Below, piece by piece: positions 1,747 through 2,650 of a stretch of DNA of 64,000 nt. Below the pieces are notes generated by a model. It did not search any database, had not been told where the DNA came from, and was given only the letters and a program-made list of their open reading frames with translations. Position 1 is the stretch's first letter. Every line of letters begins with the position of its first letter. Source of the stretch: Gammaproteobacteria bacterium (GTDB lineage: Bacteria; Pseudomonadota; Gammaproteobacteria; Pseudomonadales; Azotimanducaceae); contig VXNM01000003.1 in the NCBI GenBank assembly GCA_009840545.1, forward strand, positions 124,001 to 188,000, given 5' to 3'. The position numbers were made by a program, and so were the translations under genes.

Positions 1747-1915
1747 TACTCCAGACACAATTCCCTGTCTCTGTGAAGTGCATCGAAGGCCAATTCAAGT
1801 GCGGAATACGTAATGGGTTCATCTGTATGTTTGTTGTGTTTTTTGTGGTACTTCGCTGGCTGCAAGAGTACAATTTGAGAGCAATCGCCACCACCGCTGG
1901 CATTGGAGGCTATTT

Positions 1916-2518
1916 ATGAAGAAACACTTTTTAGGAATTGCACTAGCGGTAGTTCTTTTCCTTGCTGCAGCGAGCGTTACGGCTGCGGATTTTCAAGATG
2001 AATGGGGTCCGGAAGTGGGTTCGGAGTTGCCTGAACTTACCGTTAAGGACACTGAAGGAAACGACAGAACACTCGAAGATCTTACGGGCGACAACAAGGG
2101 AATTGTTCTTTTCTTCGTTCGCACATCGAATTGGTGAGGGTACTGCAAACGGCAACTAGGTGAGTTGCAAAAGAGACACACAGAACTTACATCGCTCGAC
2201 GTTGCAGTCGCAGCGGTGACCTACGACGCAGTACGACAAAACCGTGAATTCAGCACGGAGAATGAACTCGGTTATCCACTACTTTCAGACGAAGGCGGAA
2301 CGACCGTTAGCAGACTCGGAATTCGCAACGAACAATACGAAGAAGGGTCCTTTGCCTATGGTGTGGCAAATCCGGGGATCATGGTTATCGATGCGGACGG
2401 CAAGATCGTCTTGAAACGCGCTGAGGAAAAGTATTCCGAAAGACCGTCTTTCGACGAACTTGTGACGGCTGTCAAAGACGCCGTTTCAGATGAAGAGTCC
2501 GGGGAGACTGAAGAGTAG
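1916..2518 (+). CDS. periplasmic peroxiredoxin/thioredoxin-fold selenoprotein (in-frame UGA as selenocysteine)
   Basis: Two apparent reading frames (1916-2137 and 2165-2518) are the same frame, interrupted only by TGA at 2135-2137. Read through as selenocysteine, the product has 200 residues. It begins with a Sec signal peptide (MKKHFLGIALAVVLFLAAA, cleavage near residue 23-24) and continues with an AhpC/TSA-type fold: LPELTVKDTEGNDRTLEDL, then FFVRTSNW-U-GYCKRQL. The UGA falls exactly where homologues carry the redox Cys of W-C-x-x-C (U74, with C77 as resolving Cys). The C-terminal half keeps YPLLSDEGG, GVANPGIMVIDADGKIV. An SD (GGAGG, 1905-1909) lies six bases before the ATG. The hairpin just after the UGA is listed separately. 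The likely role is reduction of peroxides or disulfides in the envelope; that part is inferred. The alternative, a nonsense mutation, would have to hit the catalytic Cys by chance. Confidence 0.85.
2135..2168 (+). promoter_or_regulatory. bacterial SECIS-like stem-loop behind the UGA codon
   Basis: GCAAC (2152-2156) pairs with GTTGC (2164-2168), leaving a seven-base loop TAGGTGA. The loop begins 19 nucleotides after the UGA and has G residues, as SelB-binding bacterial SECIS elements require (known loop distance about 16-37 nt). Geometry and position fit; there is no experimental proof. Confidence 0.7.
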
Positions 2519-2613: not shown

Positions 2614-2650
2614 AACCCGTCAAGAGCAAGCTCTTGGCGGGTTTCTTTTT
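2614..2650 (+). terminator. Rho-independent terminator of the selenoprotein gene
   Basis: A 14-bp stem with one G-T pair has its left arm at 2614-2627, loop AA, and right arm at 2630-2643. It is followed by TCTTTTT on the plus strand. It lies 95 bases past the selenoprotein stop. The stop codon of the opposing membrane protein gene sits inside the left arm. Confidence 0.85.

Follow-up and report, generated by a model that had tools for sequence, protein, structure and literature searches.

Peroxiredoxin-like (Prx-like) selenoproteins with a UxxC site were in print by 2005, when a survey of the Sargasso Sea reported 22 such sequences (PMC1088965). The GOS survey gives 225 sequences for Prx-like 1 (pfam00578) and assigns Prx-like 3 to pfam08534 (PMC2398784). 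Both domains recur in Table 1 of PMC13188914, where a 'Prx-like thiol:disulfide oxidoreductase' (PF00578) and a Redoxin family protein with a UxxC site (PF08534) are listed.

Here, we describe a gene at positions 1916-2518 of a 64,000-nucleotide stretch of gammaproteobacterial DNA (the window), which fits the predicted Prx-like UxxC selenoproteins as presented in PMC2398784 and PMC13188914, and which is a further example of a kind known from marine bacteria. With Prx-like 1 of the GOS survey and the Sargasso Prx-like proteins it shares PF00578, selenocysteine (Sec, U) as the first residue of UxxC, a SECIS-like hairpin and Cys homologues, a likeness of description rather than of sequence, by which the exact subfamily is not fixed. 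PrxQ/Bcp and AhpE proteins have the fold in common with it, but carry TxxC together with an Arg, whereas the window protein carries UxxC and has not kept the Arg. Two thioredoxin-fold models of NCBIfam were matched weakly, the TUGYCR motif (seleno)protein NF053656 with 17.3 bits against a cut-off of 100 and the SelL-related NF040769 with 38.5 bits against 120. An exact subfamily name was not found in the open-licence literature, as far as the available text of PMC13188914, PMC1088965, PMC2398784 and PMC12013277 goes. We put the probability at about 93% that the gene encodes an exported selenoprotein of 200 residues, in which Sec74 would be inserted through SelB and the hairpin and U74-C77 would form a redox pair.

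Results

The forward-strand frame starts with ATG at 1916, ends with TAG at 2516-2518 and has a single interruption, an in-frame TGA at codon 74 within the sequence FFVRTSNW-U-GYCKRQL. The original prediction had placed a lone TGA at the first Cys position of a W-C-x-x-C motif, and its coordinates and its reading of the site as W-U-G-Y-C were both right. A scan of the window for in-frame TGA codons with a Cys three residues away returned 13 places, 2135-2137 among them. Gene callers had been expected to break the gene up. This was indeed the case in an ORF listing under table 11 with a minimum of 80 aa, in which the gene shows as the 3' fragment 2165-2518 alone. The read-through product matches Pfam AhpC-TSA with 96.5 bits (cut-off 26) and Redoxin with 64 bits (cut-off 26.6), and both matches cross the TGA. 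PF00578 above cut-off together with UxxC is the combination that marks Prx-like UxxC selenoproteins. The listed PF08534 protein likewise has UxxC and a Redoxin domain; in the window protein, however, AhpC-TSA scores higher.

Judged by eye, the N-terminus looks like a signal peptide, which suggests that the protein is exported; the N-termini of two relatives (L023 and L025) appear lipobox-like, also by eye. Between 1700 and 2700 there are three terminator-like sites, where shuffled sequence has 1.2 on average. The upstream neighbour is a 3-dmu-9_3-mt (glyoxalase-superfamily-like) ORF at 1441-1746 on the forward strand, and the downstream neighbour is an opposite-strand ORF that gave no Pfam match. 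These two neighbouring ORFs provided no hint of a substrate. The features of the locus are collected in Table 1.

Table 1 Features of the selenoprotein locus in window coordinates.
Feature	Position	Strand	Basis
Shine-Dalgarno-like GGAGG, 6 nt 5' of ATG	1905..1909	+	Read in sequence
Predicted selenoprotein gene, 200 aa, Sec = residue 74, Prx-fold W-U-G-Y-C protein	1916..2518	+	Read-through translation, Pfam AhpC-TSA and Redoxin, conserved family
Probable signal peptide, residues 1-24, ...SVTAA	1916..1987	+	By eye
UGA predicted to be read as selenocysteine, U74	2135..2137	+	Translation, family comparison, Sec machinery in genome
Cys77, partner in UxxC site	2144..2146	+	Invariant in 37-row alignment
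Bacterial SECIS-like hairpin GCAACU-AGGUG-AGUUGC, loop 20 nt past UGA	2152..2168	+	Folding, register comparison, covariation
Probable intrinsic terminator, stem of 13 pairs followed by T-rich tail	2614..2643	+	Longest stem among terminator-like sites of 1700-2700

The genome holding the window comprises 3.39 Mb in 14 contigs and is 96.5% complete and 0% contaminated. The organism had been expected to possess SelA, SelB, SelC and SelD, and the full set was located above curated cut-offs, so that the contrary case, a genome lacking the Sec machinery, did not occur. A single tRNA-Sec match exceeded the Rfam cut-off (72.7 bits, with ten weaker ones below it) and was called tRNA-SeC with anticodon TCA (UCA) by ARAGORN. 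SelA scored 522.7 bits and SelB, a protein of 627 aa, 388 bits; selB lies 3' of selA and the two frames overlap. SelD (261.6 bits) makes up the C-terminal portion of a longer ORF of 725 aa. This ORF (L018:1402-3579, reverse strand) is an Ndh-SelD fusion with an NADH-dehydrogenase-like N-terminal part, and its SelD part reads, by eye, CGGC and not Sec. Ndh-SelD fusions carrying CxxC have already been described (PMC2398784).

To follow the UGA codon across relatives, 390 genomes of the order were searched at E<=1e-10. A homologue was present in 72 of them, and 30 match rows were flagged as containing TGA. Inspection of the codon itself in every one of the 30 flagged rows gave TGA at the U74 position in 29, spread over 26 genomes; the exception, G132, has CCG there, and we read its match as PrxQ-like. 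G812 has TGC at this codon. Since these two cases make the stop flag alone unsafe, none of the 26 TGA genomes was counted without a reading of its codon. TGA is likewise present in seven named MAG loci (L051-L057). In all, with the window's own locus counted among them, TGA occupies the U74 codon in 36 of 48 family members and Cys in 12 (L031, L036, L038, L040, L043, L046-L050, L059 and L060), a count that covers, among the homologues of the order, those with a flagged stop or a retrieved locus. Cys-containing homologues, as predicted, were thus located. L051, the nearest locus from a MAG that was assembled separately, is 91% identical and keeps the TGA, and W, U/C74 and C77 are invariant across a 37-row alignment. 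An in-frame UGA conserved where homologues have Cys is the pattern by which bacterial selenoproteins are recognized.

Beyond the order, a class search at E<=1e-18 returned the own genome alone (1 of 369). A phylum search with the family profile at E<=1e-20 returned 4 of 200 genomes, including the own one; two of the three further matches read as Cys and the third, L061, was not alignable at the codon. In the genomes sampled at order, class and phylum level, the TGA form was found in one order only. A second TGA-containing group (L062, L064, L066, L068 and L070) has the motif W-U-P-P-C-W-T-Q-L-G-E-L-R-D. The open frames around its matches measure 411-432 aa and exceed those of the other TGA-flagged matches in length, so that these proteins may be fusions. 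Three genomes hold two TGA-containing family copies each: L066/L067 in G333, L029/L069 in G039 and L027/L070 in G179.

The selA gene is present in 56 of the 390 order genomes. All 26 genomes with a TGA member have it, compared with 5 of the 46 that have other homologues (Fisher P=6e-15, a value inflated by shared ancestry; many of the 46 are distant matches, to E 1e-10, and possibly other redoxins). Another 30 genomes have selA and no TGA member of this family, which is therefore not what maintains the Sec trait everywhere. Two members of the organism's own family, G279 and G350, have selA and lack a homologue of gene 1916-2518 at E<=1e-10, so that other selenoproteins are expected there.

Selection on the two sides of the UGA was compared in three pairs, one of which includes the window's gene. 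The dN/dS values were 0.07, 0.05 and 0.05 on the 3' side and, similarly, 0.01, 0.08 and 0.10 on the 5' side. The frame downstream of the UGA is under purifying selection. These data bear on the simplest alternative, namely that translation really ends at the TGA, in a copy that has decayed or been truncated, or that a sequencing error has replaced TGC or TGT. TGA is a frequent stop in this DNA, ending 17 of the 38 open stretches of at least 200 codons in the six frames of the window. However, it is common to 36 loci at this very codon, the sequence 3' of it is constrained and its presence goes with selA. Based on conservation, selection and the selA association, we rejected decay, sequencing error and a plain stop, and regard this alternative as extremely improbable.

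Only marginally more credit is due to a decoding of UGA as another amino acid, e.g., Trp, by a near-cognate tRNA and without selenium. The homologous residue is Cys in 12 of 12 non-TGA members read and never Trp, the genome holds tRNA-Sec with the complete machinery, and, as described below, the TGA form is accompanied by a hairpin that has G in its loop. Insertion of Sec at residue 74 is accordingly what the sequence comparisons predict, with a confidence close to certainty.

In a tree of the 37 rows (176 columns), the Sec/Cys site was entered as C in every row and thus did not shape the topology. The Cys form falls into two groups. One of these comprises five rows, all from genus g53 (family f44), and branches with starred support among the Sec rows of f44, a position that suggests a change from Sec to Cys. 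The selA gene is retained in four of these five genomes, and one of the five, L031 (G204), shows a hairpin at the SECIS place without the loop GU, possibly a SECIS remnant or a chance product of Gln-Leu codons. As the tree was rooted at its midpoint, it does not fix the direction of the deeper Sec/Cys change.

A stem-loop of SECIS geometry had been claimed at the expected distance from the UGA, and a hairpin was found at 2152-2168, with a stem of 6 bp and a 5-nt loop, AGGUG, that has G at position 2. According to PMC13188914, the bSECIS model allows loops of 3-9 nt, stems of 4-16 bp, a G within the first two loop positions and a distance of 16-37 nt past the UGA, at an energy of -7.5 kcal/mol or lower. 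Loop, stem, G and spacing of the window hairpin all lie within these limits. Its energy lies on either side of the threshold, depending on the length folded (-7.0 kcal/mol in 48 nt and -8.5 in 55 nt).

At the same spacing, 33 of 36 TGA loci have an uninterrupted stem of 5 bp or more, compared with two of the 12 Cys loci, namely L031 and L060. Two of the remaining three TGA loci have 4 bp and the third, L028, has a stem mismatch. L028 (G298) stands alone among the TGA relatives in having no uninterrupted run of four or more stem pairs at the usual register, and its minimum-energy fold has a mismatched hairpin there. All 36 TGA loci, compared with 3 of 12 Cys loci, have G at loop position 2 and G or U at position 3, and the hairpin is part of the minimum-energy structure of 48 nt in 27 of 36 TGA versus 3 of 12 Cys loci. 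The threshold of -7.5 kcal/mol is reached in 48 nt by 29 of 36 TGA and 8 of 12 Cys loci, so that energy fails to separate the two forms. Compared to shuffled sequences, the folding energy of the hairpin is ordinary (z +0.35 in 61 nt and -0.72 in 41 nt), and thermodynamic stability was dropped as evidence for it.

Covariation was evaluated on 27 aligned TGA loci, 25 of them distinct. Three of the six stem pairs are altered on both sides, cells changed on both sides number 26 versus 8.6 in shuffles, and 98% of cells are paired, a value that does not exceed 41% at shifted positions of the partner. Two of five covariation measures did not rise above shuffles: 361 of 500 shuffles reached the number of pairs changed on both sides, and 481 reached that of pair types. 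Synonymous recoding gave P=0.025 for the stem of the window gene, and P<0.05 in 11 of 27 TGA loci taken singly versus 0 of 10 Cys loci; the weak P in many loci implies that the stem is partly a consequence of Gln-Leu codons. An Rfam search over 1900-2540 returned three matches, all below gathering score and none a SECIS.

The mature part of the protein was modelled with AlphaFold2 from the 37 rows, with Sec entered as Cys (mean pLDDT 92.2, pTM 0.88). The modelled fold is peroxiredoxin-like. The best PDB matches in Foldseek are Bcp4/PrxQ and AhpE peroxiredoxins, with 3hjp at a TM-score of 0.88 by target length and 0.79 by query, and the first ResA-type thiol-disulfide oxidoreductase appears at rank 18. 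Peroxiredoxins have the motif PxxxTxxC, with Thr three residues before the peroxidatic Cys, and an active-site Arg; the title of one Foldseek match mentions an AhpE R116A mutant. In a phmmer alignment to 2ywn, U74 falls on Thr, Cys77 on Cys and a Pro, nearly invariant in the 37-row alignment, on Arg, residues of 2ywn that we take to be the motif Thr, the peroxidatic Cys and the catalytic Arg. A canonical peroxiredoxin was therefore ruled out, with U74 in place of the motif Thr and Pro in place of the active-site Arg. Fold and residue alignment together describe a peroxiredoxin scaffold bearing a thioredoxin-like UxxC pair. Of the original label, 'periplasmic peroxiredoxin-like', the second word is right for the fold only, as U74 occupies the place of the motif Thr and Cys77 that of the peroxidatic Cys; the first word corresponds to the probable signal peptide seen by eye.

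Thiol or peroxide redox chemistry at U74-C77 is the probable enzymatic role. Within the selenoprotein reading, the protein could act as a peroxidase, with Cys77 or U74 reacting with a hydroperoxide and the other residue resolving. The peroxiredoxin fold, the PrxQ/AhpE structural matches and the alignment of Cys77 with the peroxidatic Cys of 2ywn speak for this sub-case. Against it, the WUxxC site resembles that of a disulfide oxidoreductase, and with both the Thr and the Arg replaced, the fold does not demonstrate a peroxidase function. We consider peroxidase activity somewhat less probable than an even chance.

Discussion

The selenoprotein reading implies the following sequence of events. 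SelB, carrying Sec-tRNA(Sec), would act on the hairpin 20 nt past the UGA, so that Sec instead of a stop is placed at residue 74, a step for which the comparative evidence is strong. Once mature, the protein would combine the fold of a peroxiredoxin with a U74-x-x-C77 pair of thioredoxin type. Most likely, the selenol of U74 would attack a disulfide or a peroxide, Cys77 would resolve the intermediate to a selenenylsulfide, and a periplasmic reductant would then reduce the latter.

Genes of this class are easily missed, as they yield nothing but fragments unless UGA is taken as Sec, and 0 of the 25 NCBIfam models listed reach their cut-off. The order holds matched Sec and Cys homologues, and 10 of 12 Cys members lack the hairpin, so that the costs and benefits of selenocysteine can be put to the test. 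A bolder reading, which we hold to be unlikely, is that of a lineage-specific exported selenoenzyme with its selenol at the Thr and not at the peroxidatic position, which would represent a new periplasmic Se-S redox cycle, either of a peroxidase or of a disulfide reductase. If this were true, the Sec and Cys versions within the order would be a natural test of the benefit of selenium in one enzyme.
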